Assembly (NCBI GenBank): GCA_030267965.1
Contig: BRYA01000174.1
Location: 634 to 64,633 of the forward strand
Source of the DNA: Triparma columacea
Taxonomy: Eukaryota > Sar > Bolidophyceae > Parmales > Triparmaceae
Length of the DNA: 64,000 nt
Direction of reading: 5' to 3'
Of the stretch, positions 21,801-55,383 are shown in pieces. How positions within the stretch are numbered: the stretch's first letter is position 1; each line of letters starts with the position of its first letter. Under the pieces are notes generated by a model. The model did not search any database and was not told where the DNA came from. It worked only from the letters and a program-made list of their open reading frames with translations. The translations under genes and the position numbers were made by a program.

Positions 21801-24104
21801 ATGCAGAAAATTGACGTTGATTGGGCAACAAATGTGAGGCGCGTGGAGCTCATTGAAGGCGACTTGAGGCAGATCAGCCAGTGCAGCTTAACAGACGGCT
21901 GCAGACTGCTTCAGTGCATTCCCGAGTATGACGATCACCTCGAGCACAACAATGCGGCCATTGAGATTCAAAGGGTCAGCAGGGGCGGAAGGGGGAGGCG
22001 GAGGGCGAATGATAAGAAGAAAGAGGTGAGGCAGGGCAAGGGGCGAAGCGACGAGCTCTCAGCGTTAATGTTGGCGATGAATTGTTACGTATCGCTTATT
22101 TCTCGCCGTCCCTAATCCGATTTCTTCTCTTCGCCAATTGCAGCTTGAGCTCAGACAAAAAGTTGCCGCAACGAATGCGTTCCAGCTCAATGTTTTGAAC
22201 AAGGTGGAAAATAATGCCTTGTCTCACAAGCAGGACGAAATAAGGAAGCAGGCTAGGCACATGTTGACCGTGGCTGACCACGACAGCAAGCAGTTCAGAT
22301 GGTATGGGAAGTTGCAGGTTGCCCTGCAGTTCATTGAACAGCAGAAAGAGGCTGTCGCCTCAATGATCGCCGGGGGTGGGATCAGGGACCCCCACTACAG
22401 CTTGGAGGAAAGCATATTCGAGCCGAGCTGTAGGAGTCTACAGGAGGTGAGGCAGAGCGGTGAACGAAGCGAGCCACAGAAAGGTTTGGAGTGCAACACG
22501 CGCTAACGCCAATGCCGCGCTTTTCGCTTCGTAAAAAAAAAATGCGTCCTCTCTCTCTCTTTGCATTTATACCCCTCGCCTTACCCTCTAACCCTTTTCT
22601 CGATCCGCTTTGCTCATTGCAGCTTCGGGAGAAGCAGAGGAGGCACAATCAGGTTGAGCGAATCAATCGGACGATGCTGGTGAGGTTGGCCGAAAAGCAC
22701 AAGTTGCCAGCTTACGCCCTTGACACTTGCGGTGACCTCGGAGAGCACATTTTTAGCCCCATGAGCGTCTTCGCGAGGCTGGGGAACATACAAGATGAGA
22801 CGAAAGAATTTTTTGCGACAGTTGCAGTAATCAACAAGGAGCTTGGAGTTTGTAGAAAGGATGAGGCGCATTGGGACGATCCTAGTGTAAGGGCGAGGTG
22901 GACAGCACAGGAAATCAACAGAAACAAAAAGAGGATTAAGGAGGACAGGGAGAGGTTGGAGGAACAGCTCAGGGGGAGGAGGCTCAAGAGAGAGATGAGC
23001 AAGGGGAGGAGGGCCAGCTTGAGTAGGATTGAAGAGCTGAGCGAGTTCGTCGTTGGGACGAGGGGGCGGCAAAGGTTGAGGTCCGTGGCGAGGAGGAGGA
23101 GAAGCTTGAACTTGAGGGAAGCAAGGGTGAGAAAGGACATCGAGGAGGAGGACGTGGTATGGAAAGAAATCATGAAGGAGAACAGCCAGGAGGTGGAGAG
23201 AAGCTTGAATGCATGCAAACTGCTAAGCTTCGGGAAGCACCACAACGATGGACACAGCCTTGAGAACTTGCTGGACGAAGAGATTCTGCACAGTGCCCAG
23301 GGCTGGGAGGATTACACTAAGTTTGTCAGGTTCAGGACGTTAGGGTTTATGGATGTAGACACGTACAACATTAGGGAGAGCACAATGAGGAATAGGAGTA
23401 GGAGCATTTGCGCGCCTGAGAGGTACAGGAGCAGCAAGGAGCTGTACGTTGAGAGACTTGACGGATTTGAGGCCGTGTGGGATTTGGCTAGAGACAAGGA
23501 TTACCCGCTCATCCACAGCACCATGTGGCACGACGAGCCTGAAAACAAGAGGACAAAGCGACCAAGGTACCCAGATCCACAGATCTACAGCTGGAGCAGA
23601 GACAGGTGGGAAGAAGAAAGCAGCAACATAGATTTGCTTGCGGGGAAACATGACGTTAAGATTGTTAGCCTTGAGCTACAGGAGGAGATGGAAGCTCTCA
23701 TGTTGAAAATGTACCCGCCCAAGGTCGAGGGGGAGGGAAAGGGTGAGGAAGAGGAGCTTGCTAGTGACGAGGAATGGGCCACGGATGAGGAGGGGGAGTG
23801 GGAGGAGGACGATTGGGAGGAGGAGGAAGAGGGAGAGGAGGAGCGAGGGGGGGAGGATTTGCCGGAGGGATGGGTGGAGGCGTGGGACGAGGAAGGAAAC
23901 AAGTACTATGAAAATCCAACAACTGGGGAGAGCAGCTGGGATTTCCCGGTGGGTGCGGGGGGGGGGGGGGAGGGACAGCAGGTTGCAGTTGCAGAGGAGG
24001 CCGAGATCGGGGGGGAGGAATGGGACGGGTGGCAAACTCTTCAGGATGAATCTGGTGCGTGGTACTATTTCAATCCAACTACGGGGGAGTCACAGTGGGC
24101 ATGA
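18830..24104 (+). CDS. giant RCC1-repeat protein with IQ motif and two WW domains
   Basis: Exons 18830..19083, 19183..19447, 19636..19977, 20058..22025, 22144..22446 and 22623..24104, 1,537 aa. RCC1-type beta-propeller blades occur from about residue 115 to 560 (ILYACGENKGGVLG, VWGSGENGQLGLGQ, YSWGMGKDGRLGH, YAWGYGRHGQLGT, YSWGKGWFGVLGH). The middle is charged and helical. An IQ-like motif (IEIQRVSRGGRGRRR) lies near residue 930. Two WW domains close the protein (LPEGWVEAWDEEGNKYYENP; WDGWQTLQ...YYFNPTTGESQW). This combination suggests a calmodulin- and proline-binding scaffold, perhaps flagellar or cytoskeletal, not a Ran exchange factor. Five introns are 80-190 nt, several with complementary ends. 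Confidence 0.85.
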
Positions 24105-43280: not shown

Positions 43281-46200
43281 ATGCAAAACACAAAGTCCTC
43301 CAAGGTTCAGCGCTACGTCTCCTCCTCAGGCGCCTCAAACGGCTTCCCTCACCTTGTCGTGAGCCTCGCTCAGGCGGAGAGACTGGGGGGGGTCACATAT
43401 TCTGACTTGAGATATACTGCTACACTCGAGGAGGTGAGAAATTAGAGGGAGGGGAAGGAAGGACAGATGTGGGGCAGTGAGGGTGAAGGGTTTCGTATAT
43501 AGAACAACAGAACCTCGCTAACTTGTTTGTCGCAAAACCCCCCAACAAATACACAACTCCCACACCCATCTGTGCCCTTGACAACCCAGACTTTGGAGAG
43601 AGGTCCACCCCGGGAATTGCGTTCCTCGCAAACCAAGGGTGGGCACACCCGGCCTAAAAAATCCACCCGCAAGCGGCACGCCCGGGACGATGACGAATCG
43701 TCCGTGAACTTGACTTCCTTCCTCTCCCGTCCCTCTGTTGTTGCCAGCCTCATGGGCGACTTCGCCGTCCCCGAAGGGGGGTCTACTTCGACGTCCTCGA
43801 TGGATGGGTCTTTAAACTCACCGGGAGGGAGCAGCGCAAGCTCAGAAGACGAGGAGGTCAGGGTCAACATTAAAAAGAGGAAGATGGCCCAGAACACCAC
43901 AGAGGGTGAACCGCCAACAAGAAATATCCAGATTACCGTCCCTGCAGACGCGTCGGTCGACAAGGACCAGCCCTCGACCCCCCCCCCTTCTAAATCAGCC
44001 CCTGTCTTCCATGCCCCCAAAACTCAAACAAATACCCTAACCCCCAACAAGATAAACCCATCCCTAAACCTCCCATTGATCCGTGCCGTGTCCCCCCGGA
44101 CAGCTCGTAAGCTCGCTCGGTTACCCAAACCCAATTCCAAGGAAGTCAGTCGGGTAAAGGAAATCGAGGACAAGTTCGAAGTCCAAAAATCCGCCGGCAT
44201 GTTCAGCGTTTACGCGAAGGACAAAAGAAACAGGCCGGGGGGACTTTACGGGAAGCTGGGGATGGAAAGAGTTAAGAAATACGGGGACAACATGGGAGGG
44301 GCTGAGGTTAACGACACGAAGCTGATTAGCCAGCTTCTGAAGGGGGATATTGGGGAGTTGCTTGGGGACGATAGTGTTGCAAGGGGGGTTAAACGGATCA
44401 AGGACGCACGGAAGAAGAAGGCTAAATCGGCGACGAGAAGCAATAATGGGGGAAACACGACGAGACCAAGCTTCTCGGTTACGACACCGCTCCCGCAGCA
44501 ACCACCGATCTTTGAGGTTAAGACCAACGAGGGGCTGATGAAGAGCTTGAAGGAGTTCTACGACGTGGACGTGGTGGAGAAGGTGAGACGAAGGAGATGG
44601 AGCGAGGCGACGAAACTTAGGTTGCACGATGATGGACGATGATGATGTGGAATTTGTATCTGTGCACTGCACAAGTCACGCGTCTCATCTCTCAAGCGCC
44701 AACACCCCTCGGTCGCTGCTCTGCCCTCCACTTTCGTTCCTCCCGCAGGTTGAGAAGGATAGGAGGCATAAGGTGAAGGAAATGAGCAAAGAGATCCAGA
44801 AGGAGAAATTCCGCATCGGTGACGAGACTGCTAGTCACATTTTGAAGCTCAGGGCGCAGCTCCGAAAGTCGGAAGACTTAATCGGGGCCAAGAAAGCTGA
44901 GGCCCAGGCCGAATTACATGACGCCAAGCACGCGGGCTTTGTACCAGAGGACATGCTCGATGAAGACGAGAAGAAGGGCATGCATTTCGAGAAGGGCATC
45001 GTTGTTCTAAACAAGTTTCTCGGTCGTCAGGCTGACAAGCTAATGCTGCACACGCTCAAAGCTTGGAGAGCTGCGGCCGAGGAGGTCTACCAGGAAATGC
45101 TGGTCAAGAGCGCTCGGGTAGTCCAGAGGGGTTACAGAAAACACCAGGCTCGGATGGAGCTGGCGGAGCGGATGGAACAGAGGAGGATCCAGAAGGCCAG
45201 GGAGGACGAGATCAAAAGGGCGTTTGAGTTGAAGGTCAATAGGGCGGCGCTTATGATCCAGCAGTCGTGGCGGACAAAAATGGCCGGCCGCAAGGTAGAG
45301 AGGCAGAGGGTCATGCAAAGGGAGAGCCAGGTCATACAGAGGGCGTGGAGGTGTTGCATGGCGAGGGACGTCCTCAAGGGAAAGCAGGACTACTGGCAGT
45401 TCAAGATCGACAATTCTGTGCTGATACAAAAGAGCTGGAGGGCCAACAGGGGGAGGATGCGGTTCAGGGTGTTCGAGAAGATCAGGGTTTCAGAAAGGTG
45501 AGAATGGAAACTTTTGGACAACGACTCCAAACACACAAAAGCGATAACAATTCTAACACGTTTCACTTGTCACAGGATGGAAAAGGATGAGCTGGAGAAA
45601 AAGGCCAAAATTAAGGCGTTGTTTGAGGACCAGGGAGCGGCCGTTCAGATCCAGTACGCGTGGAGGAGGAGGCAACTGTGGCTCAACCTCAGGTACTTCA
45701 TGGGGGCGCAGAAGCAGCTCAAGGCCGTGAGGTTGCAGCAGGGATACAGGTTGTTTAAGGCCAAATTGGAGGTCAAGCGCCGAAGGGCTGCCAAGAGGAA
45801 GGCTGACGAGCTCCGCATGTCGTCGATAATCACGATGCAGACGCAGGTCAGGAGGTACCTGGCCAAGATCCACGTAGACAAGATCAAGTTTGATAAGGAG
45901 AAGGCTTCCATCATCAGGCAGCTCGAAAAGGTTCACGCCCTTAGGCCGCGCATTTTAACCCTTCCTATTAATTTGCCGCCCCCGAAGGAGAAGGAGGGGG
46001 AGAGGAAAGGGAAGCCCAAGATCGACCCCAAAACCGGACTCGAGATGACACCCAAACCCATCGTCATTGACCTCAAGAAGACAAAGAGGCAGGCAATCGA
46101 CTTAAAACGCCTTGTCAACCCTTACACATTCTCAAATGAGAAAAAGCGCGCCACCCTCATCCAAAAGATTTACAGGGGTCACAGGGCGAGGGCTAGGGTT

Positions 46201-49200
46201 ACGTTCAAACGCCAGATGGAGAAGGTGGCGCTTAAGGTATGGCAGCAGAAGCGGCAGGTAACGTGCGCTATAACCTTTCAAGCTGTGTTTAGGGGCCACA
46301 GGGGGAGGAAGTATGTGACCCTCCTCAGGCACACGACCTCATGTCTTCTCATCCAGAAGTGCGTGAGGGGGTGGTCGGGGAGAAAGGTCGCCGCGACAAG
46401 GAAGAGGGAGAGGATCGCTGCGGTTTGCATCCAGAAGCAACAGCGCGGTTACGTCAAGAGGGTGGCTTACGACGAGTACGTCAGGACGTTCAAGGTTCAG
46501 CAGAAGCCCGCCAGAGTTATACAGCGGGCTGTCAGGGCATGCATCGCCAAGATGGCGGTCGCGAGGGCTAGGCATGCGGCGAGGTTAAAAGGGGAGCAGA
46601 GGGTCATTGCTAAGGCCAACGGTGAATTTTGCTGGAAGAGGAGCAGGTGAGAGAACGAGAACAATGATATAGAAGGGAAGATAACGATCATTATTCAATA
46701 CTAACGCAACCCTTCGACGCAGGCTCGACCTCCTCCTCAAGTCCATATACGCGCCTAATGGACACAGGCACAATGGCGTTTTCCAAGAGTTCTTCAAGTT
46801 CTGGAGCGGGAACGACCACGGTGCCGGGGGCAACCACATGGAGAACGCACATTTCATCAAGGTGTTCAGGGATCTTGGGGACAAGGATGTCCTGGGCGTT
46901 AAGTTCCACGATTATAACATGAACAAGGACCGTCCGTTCGAGGTGACTGACCTAGATCTTATCTTCAGCAAGCAGAAGGGCCAAGACACGCAGCACATCA
47001 CCTACCTTCAGTTTATTGGGATTTTGGACCAGCTTAACGCTGAGCTGTTTCCTAAGTTCAAGGACTACCTGGGATTTAGGGGCAAACAAGCGAGGATGCT
47101 TGATCTGGTGCTCAACAAATTCTTCAAGTCACACTACGACGCTAACCACAAAACGAAGGAGAAGCGGAAGCCCAGGCCCAGTGGGGTCAAGTTCACAAAG
47201 TCCCTCAAAGATAGGACCGACAGGTACATCTTCCTGAAGGCGAGCAAGATCCAGGCGCAGGCCAGGGGCTTCCACTGCAGGCTTACGTTCGCTAAGGACA
47301 AGACCGAGAGGCAGAGGCAAGAGGAAATAAGGAGGAACCAGCTGAAGAGCATCGGCATCCAGGCTTTGGTTAGGAAGTTCCTTGCAAGGATGAAGGCGAT
47401 CAGTATGGCGGAAAGGATTTACATCAAGTACGTCGATCCGTCTAGCGAAGATCCTTACTGGAGCAATCCGAGGACCAAGGTCGTCACTTGGGCCAAACCC
47501 AAAATATTTGGCAAGTTTGCGGACGTGAGCCATCCAACCATCCTCCCCCACAAGGGCACCGAGTTCGTAATAATGTGCGTGAACTGCAACATCGAGATAT
47601 GCGATCTGGTTTGCCAGTCTTGCGACGACGCTTACTGCAAGGACTGCTTCACCTCTCTCCACACGAAAGGAACAAGGAAGAAGCACCAGCCCCTCGTCGT
47701 CCCCACGTGCATGGAGTGCGACTACCAGCTGGCGACCAAGACCTGCGAGACGTGCACGGCCGAGCAGCACAAGGCCTGCAACTACTGCGACGTGTGCCAC
47801 ATCAACGTTCACAGGTACGAGGGCGTCGGGAAGAACAAGAAGCACAACTGGAGCTGGAAGGTGCAGCCCTGCGTGGAGTGCAAGAGCTACGCGGCGAGGT
47901 GGAGGTGCGAGGACTGCGAGGACGTTTACTGCACGGCCTGCTTCGACAAGGTTCACAAGAGGGGGAGCAGGGTTAATCACAAGTGCGAGCCTCTGACTTA
48001 TTACACTCCGATGATACACGATCACTACGAGAGGGACATCAGGGAGAAGACGAGGAGGGCAAGGAAGGCCGGCGACGACGAGGAGATGGAGAGGTTGAGA
48101 CAGGAGAAGGAGTACAAGTGTGCGAGGGTCGTACAGAAGCGATTCAGGGGCTACATGGGGAGGAGGATCGGGAAACCAATATTGAAGGAGGGCAGGAAGA
48201 AGATTAGGGAAGCGTGGAAGCAGCGGAAGAAGGACGATGCGATCAGGGCGACGAGGAAGTACCAGATTATGGAGCCGATTGGTTTCGCAAAGAGGCTCGA
48301 TAGCGACACTATGGAGGAGGCGGTTCTAAAGCGCCTGCCTATCGTATTGAGGCCTAGGGCAAAGTGGTGGATCACGAAGAACCTGCAGGACGATTACTGG
48401 TACGAGGAGAACATTAAAGACAAGAAGAAGATCCCCAAGAGGGGCTTCGAAGTCGGCAAGTACGAGGAGCTGGTGGAGCAGGCCTGGCACGGGGGCATCA
48501 GGCTGCCAGGCAAGGTCGGCATATTGCAGGGCAAGATGGATGTCAACACGGACGAAGTGCCATTGAATAGGTGAGTGCAACGAGATCAAAGTAGTAGGGG
48601 TTGGGATAGGGTTGGGATAGGGTTGGGATAGGGTTGGGAGTAGGATTACGACAATTGCTAACCCCCTTCCCATCGCAGGTTCGTCGCCGTGAATGACAGG
48701 GTAAGGCTGAAGAATTACTGTTACTCTGTGGACAAGGACGGGTTCGAGCTATTGACCGAGAAGATTATACCGCTAGACAGGGTATGGAGGTTCAAAGAGG
48801 AGCCTAAGCTCGTAATGTACAAGTACCCGCCCCTGAGCAAATACGCGAGGATGGTGAGGAAAACCGTTTACGCCATCATCGAGAGTCAAGGCCTGCAGAT
48901 CGTCCTCCGCGGCACCTTGAAGGGCGGGAACATCTTGGAGAAGCTCATGGAGATTGCCGTGAGGTTAGCGAAGGACAGGCTGAGCATGAAGTTCGCAGCC
49001 AAGGTGAAGAAGGTGAAGGATGGTTTCAGTATGAGGAAGAAGAAGATCAACTACTTTGACAAGGCCAAGCAGAGCAGGATGGCAGTTGAGAATGAAGAGG
49101 CCGCGCTAGCGACAACTCTATTGGACCCGAACGCCGAGGAAGACAAGGATGCGGAGAGGGCGAACGCTTATTTGGACGACAATTTGGGAGACTGGGAGGA

Positions 49201-50519: not shown

Positions 50520-53500
50520 ATGAAGATGAAAAACAACACTAAACATAAATTATCACCAAAAGCATCTAAAAGTGTAAAAAGTGATGAAATAGTTGGAGAA
50601 ACAGGAGCAAGAGTCTCCCCCTCCACGGAGGATGATGAAGCGGCTGGTTCTCAAAATGACTCTCCAAATGATACCGTAGGGGATGATGAGGATCAAATGT
50701 GAGTAAGAATGTGTAAATATATGTGTGTGTATATGTATATATATCTATATATACATCTAAATGTGTTAAATAAATGAGTCAATAATACGAGTCAGCCCCG
50801 ACAATATCACATCTCCGTTAAATCACATAAAACACCATCAAAAAACATCAAATACCACAACCCGACATACACACAAACAATAATCCACCCATTTACACAA
50901 TTACCTCCCTAAACACACATAATTATACATACACTTAACCTCCCCCCAACCCTCCCCCCCCAACCCCCCCCTTACCCTTCCCTTTAACCCAAGGTTCGCC
51001 GAACTCGAGGCCCAGCAAGCTCTCGAGAGCAGCGGACCGCTCGTCGCCCCTTCCCTTCTCGGAGGGGATGCAGCTACAGCCTCTCTGGAGAAGCAGTCAA
51101 AGACCGACCAGCTTGACGAACTCCTTAACAAGGCAAAGGAGGTGAGATGAAACGACGAAGCACATGCTGTTTGTCTTGGCTGAGGTCGTCTCGTGATTGT
51201 CACCCATCGCATCGACCTAACCCTTCTTCTTCGCTCTTGACAGTACTCTAACTTTATCGCTGAGGACCTTAAGAACCTTAGGGAGGACATGGCTAGGGAG
51301 GCCCAGGAGAAGGAGACTACCACCCAGAAGGGCAAGAAGAGGAGCAAGAACGCTGACTCCTCTGTCCCCTCCAAGGTGGAAGCCAGCACTGACAAGAAGA
51401 AGGTTTTCATCCAGCCCGAAAACCTCGCCGAGAACTGCTTCCTCAAGAACTACCAGCTCGAGGGCCTCCGTTGGCTCGCCTCCCTCTACGAGAACGGCGT
51501 CTCCGGCATCCTCGCCGACGAGATGGGTCTAGGCAAGACCATCCAGGTAATCGCCCTCCTCGCCCACCTCCGCAAGAACGGCACCTACGGCCCTCACCTT
51601 ATCGTCGCCCCCCTAGCGACCCTACCCAACTGGACGAGGGAGCTCGAGAAGTGGCTCCCGTGCGCGAACGTTATCAGGTACCACGGTACCAAGGACGAGA
51701 GGGAGGCATACTTCAAGAAGATAGACCCCACGACAGGTCGCGACATGGCTCCCTTGAAGAAGAAGAACAGGAAAGCCCCGACCTTCCCGGTAATCGTGAC
51801 GAGCTATGAAGTGGCGATCAGGGATATGAAGCAGTTGAACAGCATGAGGAACTATGCGTACATGATCGTGGATGAAGGACAGAGACTTAAGAATAGGAAG
51901 TGCTGCCTTATCAAGAACCTTAGGCAGATTGGGGCTGACAACAGGTGAGGGATATTTATTTTGAGGGGAGGGCACGAGGGGAGGGGAGGGAGGGGATGAG
52001 GGAAAATAAAGATGAGGGAAAATAAATATATAGGAGGAAGTGAAATTAATACAAGCGTACACAAACACAAGAGCGAAACCAACAACTGCACTCTCGACAC
52101 ACACGATACTCCTTCGGCTAACTCCCTCACTCCCTCACTCCCACACTCCCTCACTCCCTCACTAGACTGCTGTTGAGCGGGACACCCATCCAGAACAACC
52201 TCGACGAGCTCTGGAGCCTCCTGAACTTCATCAACCCCCAGATCTTCGACGACCTCTCCGTGTTCCAGTCCTGGTTCGGCTTCAAGGACATCGGAGCCGG
52301 CGGCACCGACGAGGAGGAGATCCTCCGCACCCAGAAGAACGACGCCATCGTCTCCAAGCTCCACGAGATCCTCCGCCCCTTCCTCCTCCGCAGGATAAAA
52401 AAGGACGTCCTAACCGACATGCCCCCCAAGAAGGAGGTCGTCGTCTACGCCGGCATGAGCAAGCTCCAGCAGGGCTACGCTTCCAAGATCAACAACCACG
52501 AGCTCCGCACCGAGCTCATGAAGACGGGCATCGACGGGGCGAAGAACATCAGCGAGGTCAACCCACTTATGAACCACAGGAAGAACTGTAACCACCCGTT
52601 CCTGTTTGGGGAACCTATCGACCCGGCGACTGGACAACACATCGGGACTACGCACCCACAGATTCTCATCAGGGCGAGGTGAGAAGGGAGGTTGAATGGG
52701 AATGGAATGTCTACAAATAACTATATTTCAACACAGTAGCTCGCACCCGCTCACCCTCTTCCGCTCTCCTCCGCTTGTCGCTCCGCAGCGGTAAGATGAA
52801 CCTGCTTGATAGGATGCTGACCAGGCTCTGGAAGGACAAGCACCAGGTGCTTATCTTCAGCCAGATGACGTCCATCCTCAGCATAATCGAGGACTACCTA
52901 ATACTTAAGAACTGGAAATACTGCCGCATCGACGGCTCCACCAAGATCGACGACCGCCAGTCCCAGATGGACGCCTTCAACGCCGAGAAGACGAACGGCG
53001 CCGACGGCGGCCGCAACAACGGCGACGACAGGCACTTTGTCTTCCTCCTAAGCACTCGGGCGGGGGGGCTAGGGATAAACCTGGCGAGCGCGGACACTTG
53101 CATCATATTCGACAGCGACTGGAACCCACACCAGGACAGCCAGGCGCAGGACAGGTGCCACAGGATAGGCCAGAACAAACCGGTCGCGGTTTACAGGCTG
53201 CTGACGGCCGGGAAGGACAGCGCGGATATGGACATGATGAAGAAGGCTATAAGTAAGAAGAAACTCGACCGTATGGTCATTGCAGGAGGAGACTTCAGGG
53301 AGGGTGGACAGAGGAGGTGAGAACGGGGGGAACAAATGCGGGGAGAAGCACGCACCGCATTTGCAACGTTACTAACGCACAAGCCCCCCGTTCTCGATCG
53401 GCCGGCTTCGACCATTTCGCAGCAAGGGAGAACTCACCGAGGACACTCTCAGCTCTCTCCTCGCTGACGACCTGAAGAAGGACGATGTTGAGGACATCAA

Positions 53501-53639
53501 AATCAGCGAGGACGAGCTCGACATGATAATGGACAGAGGTAGACTCTTCGGGGAGGTTGACCTTGAAAGCGACGGGAAAATGTACAGCATTTTGGAAGAT
53601 AAGGAGGGGGAAAGCGACTTGCTTAAGAGCACTTTTTAA
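50520..53639 (+). CDS. SNF2-family chromatin remodeler, LSH/DDM1-like
   Basis: Exons 50520..50698, 50994..51141, 51244..51944, 52166..52678, 52789..53316 and 53423..53639, 761 aa. Helicase motifs in order: GILADEMGLGKTIQ (I), IVAPLATLPNW (Ia), YMIVDEGQRLKN (II), LLLSGTPIQNNL (III), VLIFSQMTSIL (IV), LLSTRAGGLGINL (V), QAQDRCHRIGQ (VI). The LRPFLLRRIKKDVLTDMPPK linker and KNCNHPFLF are typical of SNF2. Overall length, the DEG-x-R-[IL]KN motif II and absence of SANT/SLIDE domains favour LSH/HELLS/DDM1, which remodel nucleosomes for DNA methylation maintenance. Motif II reads DEGQ, not DEGH. ISWI is the main alternative. Confidence 0.88.
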
Positions 53640-53850: not shown

Positions 53851-55383
53851 TTACGGGGCCTCTCCGTCGGAGTAATTTTCCACCCATTCGTTTAACGCAA
53901 GACCCTCCAGTCCGGGGGCTTGTATCCTTGAAGTGATGGCCTTTATAGACTTGTCAACCACGCCTTCGAGCTCCTCGCACTCAGCCCTCCCGCCTGTTAA
54001 GCAACCGTCAATCAAAGGAATCATCACCTCTGCATTCCTCACGTCTCTACCCCCCTCCAAAATATTGGAAAATATTTCACGAGCGCCTAACACATCGCCC
54101 AACAATATCTTCCGGAACGCAGCCCGCTCGGTACCCTCCGCCTCTTCCACCACCTGCTTGAATACTGCCTTGTTACATACCCCCTTCCCCTCCTCGTGGA
54201 TCCTTCTTTGCAGGTCAGGTGGTACGTCGAACATAATAATCGTCTCACGGTGGCAATTCAAAACCCCGTTGAACCGACCCTCGTTCCAACCCTGGACGCC
54301 CAACGCGAACATCCAAAGTCCGACCTGGACGTCGTCGATATCACAGCATTCAACTGAAGGGCCACCCTTGTTTCTTATCAAACCTGCGACGTGGCGGTGG
54401 GCGAGGCCGGCGTGGGGAAATGGGCATGTGTTTGTAAGCGTAGTCACTTCGCGGCGCCCCCTCCTTCTCTGTGCGTATTCTCCAAACCCCATTCTTACCT
54501 TCCCTCAGCAGTTCCGCGTTGCTGCTAATGTACTCAACCAAGTCTTGGGAAAGGATATATCCGGCGCCGTAGGCGAAGGGCGGGAGCATGGGTAGGGGCA
54601 TGCACCTTTCTGTGACGTGGTTCTTGTGTGAGGGATCGCGGATTGGATTCATTGTGAAGAACAAACCGCGGTAGTGACGGCGACGTGGGCTAGTGAGGAG
54701 GGTGGAAAATAGAGAGGCTTCATCGACGTAGACGTCGTCGTCGAGCTTTACGATGTAGTCGTATTCTGTGATACCGTCCATTGAAGTCAACACCTGCATT
54801 AGCTTTAGAATGTTGTTTCGGTAGACGTCCTCGACTCCTGTTTTGTGTATCGATACCCTCGCAGGGAGATCTTCAACTGTAAAATCATCACAACGCTCAG
54901 ATCGACCGATCGAAAAGACTAGATCGACGTGCCTGAGGTTGGATCCTGCCAAGAGTAAGGATGTGTTGTTAGTGCCATGGAAATAAATGCATGACAGTCG
55001 TCCCACACCATGCGNNNNNNNNNNNNNNNNNNNNNNNNNCCCCCCCCCCCCCTCCCCCCCTCCCCAACTACCGCGCGCTCACCCCATGTCTCAACGATTG
55101 CCCTTCTCCTCTCCATATTGTCGCAAGCAGAGTTCACAAGCAGTAAAATCTGAGGCTCACTAGCGTCGCAGTCCTCAAAATCCGAAGCAGTACCATATGT
55201 AGCCATAAGTAGTACTCCCCACGCCAGTGCTCCTCGAAGAGGCAGCCACATCCCTCCCCAAACTGCCTTGAATTTGGACAACCCAAAGGGAAACAACAAC
55301 AAAGTCCAAATGAGCGATTTCATTGCCAAACCCGCCCAATATACGGGGACGGTCGACGCCGAGACCGGTATAATCCACGGCAA
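53851..55383 (-). CDS. GT31-like beta-1,3-glycosyltransferase, type II membrane protein
   Basis: Exons 55083..55383, 54499..54945 and 53851..54383, 426 aa from the first ATG. A second ATG at 55323 (MKSLIWTLLLFPFGL) would begin at the signal anchor. GT31 features: ILLLVNSACDNMERRRAIVE, a splice that yields TWGSNLRHVDLVFSIGRSE, KLDDDVYVD (DxD), PPFAYGAGYILSQDLV, and DDVQVGLWM. A Golgi or ER galactosyl- or N-acetylglucosaminyl-transferase is expected; substrate unknown. The assembly gap lies inside intron 1, so the coding sequence looks complete. Its 5' end overlaps the proposed first exon of the MORN gene. Confidence 0.8.
55015..55039. other. assembly gap (25 N)
   Basis: Twenty-five N next to a long C run (55040-55078 is almost pure C with a few T). 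The true gap size is unknown. It falls inside intron 1 of the GT31-like gene. Confidence 0.99.

Follow-up and report, generated by a model that had tools for sequence, protein, structure and literature searches.

A hairpin-bearing intron in an SNF2-type gene of Triparma columacea, and introner-like intron families in the same genome

Introduction

An earlier note on a 64,000-nt stretch of Triparma columacea DNA (below, the window) drew attention to an intron of an SNF2 gene in which two nested pairs of segments are exactly complementary, and suggested that it might be an introner carrying terminal inverted repeats (TIRs). The question raised by the locus is where this intron came from and how its hairpin is to be read. 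The answer that we regard, with some reserve, as the probable one is that it is an ordinary GT-AG (U2-type) intron gained in this lineage, perhaps as a decayed descendant of an introner, and that the hairpin is private to this copy.

Results

The intron and its gene

The intron lies in the SNF2 gene exactly where the earlier note had placed it (Table 1). The host protein has a Pfam match to SNF2-rel_dom (2.6e-81), and its closest solved relatives are DDM1 proteins, the best of them DDM1 at E 1e-146. Its protein matches include many diatoms, and the best named one, at 65%, is from Parmales sp. scaly parma. The gene's stop codon is at 53636-53638. Removal of the intron restores the reading frame across an AG|C junction, and the spliced protein of 761 aa reads on into a C-terminal tail that can be aligned with its relatives. 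If the intron is retained, the unspliced translation meets an in-frame TGA at 53318-53320. With GT...AG borders, a restored frame and a branch-point-like motif, the intron has at sequence level the features of a spliceosomal GT-AG intron, and the reading frame argues that it is a real intron, probably spliced by the ordinary machinery. Downstream, at window positions 55015-55039, there is a run of 25 Ns inside an apparent intron of a minus-strand gene.

Table 1. Positions in the window of the features discussed, with the family-B copies found elsewhere in the genome
Feature	Position	Strand	Remarks
Host gene, SNF2/DDM1-HELLS-type remodeller	50520..53638	+	exons 50520-50698, 50994-51141, 51244-51944, 52166-52678, 52789-53316, 53423-53638
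Focal intron	53317..53422	+	106-nt GT-AG spliceosomal, phase 2, near 3' end of the SNF2 (DDM1/HELLS-type) gene; from frame continuity and protein alignment
Left outer arm GAGAACGGGGGG	53319-53330	+	intron +3 to +14; overlaps donor
Right outer arm CCCCCCGTTCTC	53384-53395	+	intron -39 to -28; between branch point and acceptor, 27 nt short of intron end
Left inner arm CAAATGCGG	53333-53341	+	
Right inner arm CCGCATTTG	53355-53363	+	inner helix between donor and branch point
Putative branch-point motif TACTAAC	53370-53376	+	within TACTAACGCA, common to other introns of the genome
Intron of neighbouring gene, starting GTGAGAATGG	45498..45575	+	first residues of unspliced ORFs P0122 (98%) and P0124 (91%) fall within it (by eye)
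Intron with TACTAACGCAACCC	46647..46722	+	absent from P0121 and P0123 (by eye)
Family-B copies L083, L085, L086, L089, L093, L095, L098, L103, L105			acceptors set by hand

The hairpin

The arms described in the earlier note are present as claimed: the outer pair is complementary at 12 of 12 positions with 53 nt between the arms, and the nested inner pair at 9 of 9 with 13 nt between. Half of each outer arm is a G6/C6 run, and TACTAAC sits downstream of the right inner arm and upstream of the right outer one. The further claim that the arms bring donor and acceptor together stands for the donor side and falls for the acceptor side, where the right arm stops short of the intron end (Table 1).

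The comparison with shuffled sequence that the note had proposed gave a clear result: the intron had an MFE of -41.6 kcal/mol and a z of -3.34, and none of 200 dinucleotide shuffles folded as low. In a separate run its z was -3.64, which ranked second among 85 introns, and the mean z of 55 unselected introns was -0.56, which points to slightly more structure than in their shuffles. Intron 3 of the same gene (51945-52165), with a purine-rich start and a pyrimidine-rich end, had the lowest z of the 85 (-4.55), and so folds better relative to its shuffles than the focal intron does. When 40 nt of each exon were included, predicted pair probabilities were 0.98-1.0 for both helices of the focal intron, which are separated by an asymmetric internal loop of 2 nt on one side and 20 nt on the other. 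Donor accessibility in the predicted fold was the 12th lowest of 55, an ordinary rather than an extreme value. An Rfam scan of the window found nothing at gathering score.

The pairing compared with swapped introns

To gauge the outer pairing, the donor side of one intron was set against the body of another, a control that keeps the layout of base composition. For this test 147 predicted introns were used, and the arm was taken as positions +2 to +15. A 12-nt complement occurred in 7 of 21,462 swapped pairs (3.3e-4), and in 1 of 2,970 in a stricter set. By crude extrapolation to about 9,000-32,000 introns in 37.85 Mb, some 3-10 such introns are expected by chance per genome; the base for this was the 55 strict or 199 loose introns that our own gene finder predicted in 238 kb. 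The gene finder merges some genes, and filters dropped 144 of the 199 predicted introns to leave 55 'confident' ones. The 12-bp pairing is thus beyond chance for a single intron, yet a few are expected genome-wide. Because the nested second helix adds rarity, and because the intron comes from a single 64-kb window, we do not assert pure chance with certainty.

By eye, many introns of this genome seem to start G-rich and to finish C-rich. A general rule that introns of the genome pair their ends was considered and dropped, since the swapped control with a 14-nt arm did not bear it out: the first 14 nt after +1 did not in general pair more with their own intron body, where the longest run averaged 5.11, than with swapped bodies, where it averaged 5.00 (p 0.23, n=55). 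With a 30-nt arm and introns of at most 150 nt, the mean was 5.73 with the intron's own body and 5.37 with others (p 0.018 uncorrected, n=41, one of several tests). Given this excess and the mean z of -0.56, some selection for structure may be at work.

The intron site in relatives

The presence or absence of the intron in related sequences, which the note had also proposed to examine, was read from ORFs. An ORF of 83% identity (P0007, 515 aa, on a 12.6-kb contig) continues across the focal site with no intron, and two more distant ORFs, P0010 (13.7-kb contig) and P0082 (124-kb contig), also run across it. If these ORFs are unspliced genomic sequence, as we take them to be, the focal intron is probably a recent gain. 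The note had held that conservation of the intron at the same site in distant relatives would count against an introner; this does not apply, because the intron is absent from the 83% ORF and from the more distant ones. Other aligned relatives are likewise uninterrupted at the site, though these could be transcript sequences or spliced models. Two sequences (P0129 and P0130) appear by eye to end shortly before the focal site, at different positions, as introns there would cause. Among nine proteins with E 1e-70 or better, the top-scoring at 77% and none above 82%, there was no same-species ORF ending at the focal donor.

The protein database does hold at least some unspliced ORFs, since P0122 (98% identical) starts, by eye, with translated intron 45498-45575 of the neighbouring gene, and ends at the donor of intron 46647-46722. 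Intron 45498-45575 is absent by eye from P0125 (81%), P0121 (67%) and P0123 (59%), the ORFs of which are continuous there, whereas P0124 (91%) has an intron at this place; it was likely gained on the line to this alga. Intron turnover appears high, as P0007 also lacks two other introns of the SNF2 gene and begins with residues that look like a translated intron absent here.

An abundant, decayed family of introner-like introns

The note had suggested, as an inference, that the focal intron is of the introner type. Two introner-like families were indeed found in this genome; membership of the focal intron was not supported. Family A is marked by a 14-nt donor end, GTGAGAAYGGACAA, which has 630 matches in the genome at no more than one mismatch, the reversed pattern having 41. 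When 40 of the 100 exact GTGAGAAYGGACAA places listed were fetched, AG preceded the motif in 37; 32 of the 40 introns passed a coding-junction filter and 8 failed, and phases 0, 1 and 2 were represented 16, 2 and 14 times. Several of the automatically chosen acceptors look wrong. TACTAACGCAACCC has 208 matches in the genome versus 36 in the control. In introns selected by the branch-point region, GTGAGAAT was found upstream in 8 of 16, compared with 5 of 55 unselected introns that start with it (p 0.0008); the two criteria differ slightly, and GTGAGAAT is present in about 1% of random 180-nt stretches.

A profile of the family-A body was made from 26 introns with the donor end removed and was scored on the 55 unselected introns. 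With a cut-off of 9.9 bits it found 7 of the 55, none of 1,100 shuffles and none of 55 reversed introns; at 5 bits it found 7 unselected introns, no shuffles and 2 reversed. Linkage between the family-A donor and the body profile in unselected introns was not significant (p 0.22, 9 versus 46), and four 3'-side motifs compared between family A and other introns gave p values of 0.05-0.19. There was no excess of target-site duplications (TSDs) among 32 family-A introns. The 55 unselected introns had a weak excess of 4-nt TSD-type matches, five versus 2.1 (p 0.03), and in one of them the start matches the following exon over 6 nt (p 0.02), each being one of 24 tests. No family-wide TIR was seen in family A, with inverted-end counts near control. 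That extended splice signals alone explain family A is a live alternative.

The focal intron shares the first 10 nt of family A and the branch-point region, with GTGAGAACGG and TACTAACGCA in common. Because the body profile gives it no score, any descent from family A would rest on about 20 nt beside the splice signals. Two introns, at window 22026-22143 and at L009 9787-9900, have by eye a GCGAAGCGACGAGC-like sequence near the donor that nearly matches the common 3' segment when reverse-complemented; these are possibly insertions in the opposite orientation.

A young family of introner-like introns

Family B was defined by its 22-nt end, GTGAGACTGGTGAAAGATGGGG, which has 13 matches at no more than three mismatches, 10 of them exact, versus none in the control. 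Eleven of the 13 start with GT, and the two that start with GA lie within longer introns (L087, L094). The 22-nt end had been reached through one longer copy, which as a query gave 56 matches including itself, the others being 77-96% identical over parts; 40 of 67 candidates were scored. Nine copies (Table 1) have a mean identity of 87% (70-97%) in aligned columns, and their flanking peptides have no BLAST similarity to one another. Six of the nine have 120 nt of open frame on each side, L089 and L103 have an open frame on the exon adjoining the intron, and L098 is not supported. Two further copies, L102 and L104, have lost the common 3' end. Repeats of the TSD type, with the exon end found again at the intron end, occur in two of eight copies (7 and 4 nt), and none of at least 4 nt in 56 cross pairs; with ends set by hand, they are suggestive only. 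By eye, no TIR was seen. As far as could be tested, family B shows what is expected of introners, i.e., similar introns in unrelated genes with similarity near both ends, and extended splice signals alone do not explain it. On one contig (C663), L096 and L097 have the 3' segment of families A and B preceded by another intron-like 5' segment that is repeated, GGTATGCCTCTAATAGTCATAGCAACCTTCGCT.

The focal intron compared with its family candidates

In the genome-wide search for introns with homologous arms that the note had called for, two whole-genome DNA searches, of a kind that skips very common words, returned the focal intron only; the intron is single-copy in the assembly. On this side the refuting condition set by the note, that no other intron aligns to it, went against the introner reading. 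A local alignment of its body against 94 other introns had a best score of 21, compared with a shuffled mean of 21.7 (p 0.7). The end of the exon and the end of the intron have only AG in common, so that no target-site duplication is seen. Inverted copies of GTGAGAAYGG within 51-111 nt of each other gave 7 matches at 6 places, the focal intron included, against 3 in a reversed-arm control, which covered this range; at 112-172 nt there were 6 matches at 5 places.

PMC9860276 recognises introners by similarity to other introns at unrelated sites that reaches near both splice sites, and TIRs as family-shared repeats within 20 nt of the intron ends. What the focal intron shares with other introns is short end motifs, and its right arm lies well inside the intron, at -39 to -28. 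Because it is single-copy, inverted ends are near control and no TSD is present, we do not assign it to a family of TIR introners, and the TIR origin proposed in the note is not supported.

A subfamily based on GTGAGAACGGGGGG was tried and rejected: only five were found in the genome and two in the reversed control, and one of the five lacks a preceding AG. C163 and C542 have the full 10-nt end GTGAGAAYGG inverted on both sides; considering how abundant the motif is, we estimate, rather than compute, that this is about the chance rate. A 140-bp stretch of C163 (24796-24935; L058/L068) has GTGAGAACGG at its two ends in opposite orientations, and either strand of it starts like a family-A donor.

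Discussion

Origin of the intron and of its hairpin

The most likely course of events is that a G-rich donor side and a C-rich acceptor side came to pair, by chance or through local sequence change, and that the hairpin is tolerated. Folding would let the inner 9-bp helix shorten the path from the donor to the branch point, and the outer 12-bp helix would tie +3 to +14 at the donor to the stretch separating the branch point from the acceptor. Should the outer helix form before U1 binds, it would compete for the donor at +3 to +6 and retention would be favoured. Retention would place a stop codon at the junction, and the last ~72 residues would be lost. The focal intron itself matters little, since an intron-rich genome should contain a few such hairpins.

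More speculative, and short of an even chance in our estimate, is an introner-driven history of this genome: hundreds of its introns would go back to elements with GTGAGAAYGGACAA as their end, a sequence doing duty as splice donor as well, and the focal intron would be a late relic whose remaining element sequence folds on itself. With the same tentativeness, the copies would then run from the young, highly similar family B to decayed ones of which just the donor and branch point can still be recognised. If GTGAGAAYGGACAA and the branch-point-to-acceptor segment do mark element ends, introns in this genome could be traced from a fresh copy to an ordinary-looking intron, and that step is what makes introner-derived introns hard to recognise.

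It is unlikely that the focal intron is an older one lost in relatives, with a chance hairpin and no introner connection. The swapped-pair rate allows for a hairpin of this kind, and the intron body matches no family, but absence from the 83% relative and from P0010 and P0082 makes loss the less parsimonious account, and the neighbouring gene has a likely gain in intron 45498.

We would put at a similarly low level the idea that the hairpin has been selected, its inner stem acting as a zipper and its outer stem closing the branch-point-acceptor spacer, and that it tunes splicing or retention in the SNF2 gene. The layout is like that of the yeast zipper and downstream stems in the passages of PMC12350175 that describe them, both helices are predicted at near-certain probability, and retention gives an immediate stop. 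By position the inner helix fits a zipper stem, but the outer helix covers donor +3 to +6, and a zipper stem should, we infer, leave the donor free. Moreover, donor accessibility is ordinary, and the relatives' ORFs seen lack the intron and give no sign of conservation.

Still less probable is an origin from a TIR DNA transposon (MITE-like), the arms being the TIRs and the left one carrying the donor. The exact 12-bp inverted arms, the probable recent gain, the introner-like families and the inverted ends at C163 and C542 would all fit. Against this are the single copy, inverted ends near the level of their control, the lack of a TSD or of a family TIR (for B, by eye), and a right arm that does not reach into the final 20 nt of the intron, where PMC9860276 looked for TIRs. 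A 3'-tailed mirtron, in which the spliced intron would be a pre-miRNA-like hairpin with a 27-nt tail, is most improbable, for although a 3' tail follows a hairpin that starts at the donor, the stem is split by the large asymmetric loop and no Rfam match was found in the window.

We return to an ordinary, recently gained intron as the preferred reading. Among the papers listed in the literature searches, none connects Parmales or Bolidophyceae with introners. Neither 'intron' nor 'introner' occurs in the main text of the genome paper on Parmales (PMC10328945), and that of PMC9860276, the supplementary tables of which span many marine genomes, has no 'Bolido', 'Parmal' or 'Triparma'. Priority for introner-like families in Parmales is not established by these main texts and listings.

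Comparison with known systems

The comparisons below draw on those passages of the cited papers that concern each system. Like introners (PMC9860276, PMC3879977), the focal intron is probably lineage-specific and occupies an AG|GT site in a unicellular alga, in a genome with intron families that are similar near both ends. Unlike introners, it has no relative found in the genome, no TSD and no family TIR. With the TIR introners of Aureococcus (PMC9860276, PMC7789003), also an ochrophyte, it shares complementary segments inside the intron and canonical splice sites. The Aureococcus elements are described as present in many copies, with TIRs whose length is constant and with direct repeats, whereas the focal intron is present once and has no direct repeat. 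In the nonconventional and intermediate introns of euglenids (PMC4770533) the end regions likewise pair in the fold, but there +4 to +6 pair with -8 to -6, often with non-canonical borders, and the right arm of the focal intron is much farther from the acceptor.

The systems nearest in look are the introners of Amoebophrya and the intron stems of yeast. Amoebophrya introners (PMC7789003) resemble the focal intron in having inverted repeats (8-20 nt) inside a single intron that form a predicted hairpin, none of them family-specific. They were defined among non-canonical introns, with direct repeats of 3-5 nt at the borders, and for canonical introns a comparable arrangement is reported at 1% and 15%; the focal intron differs in being GT-AG with TACTAAC and in having no direct repeat. 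The zipper and downstream stems of yeast introns (PMC12350175) are likewise stable stems that shorten the distances from donor to branch point and from branch point to acceptor. The outer stem predicted here differs from the yeast stems in that one of its sides is the donor itself and the other the branch-point-acceptor spacer.
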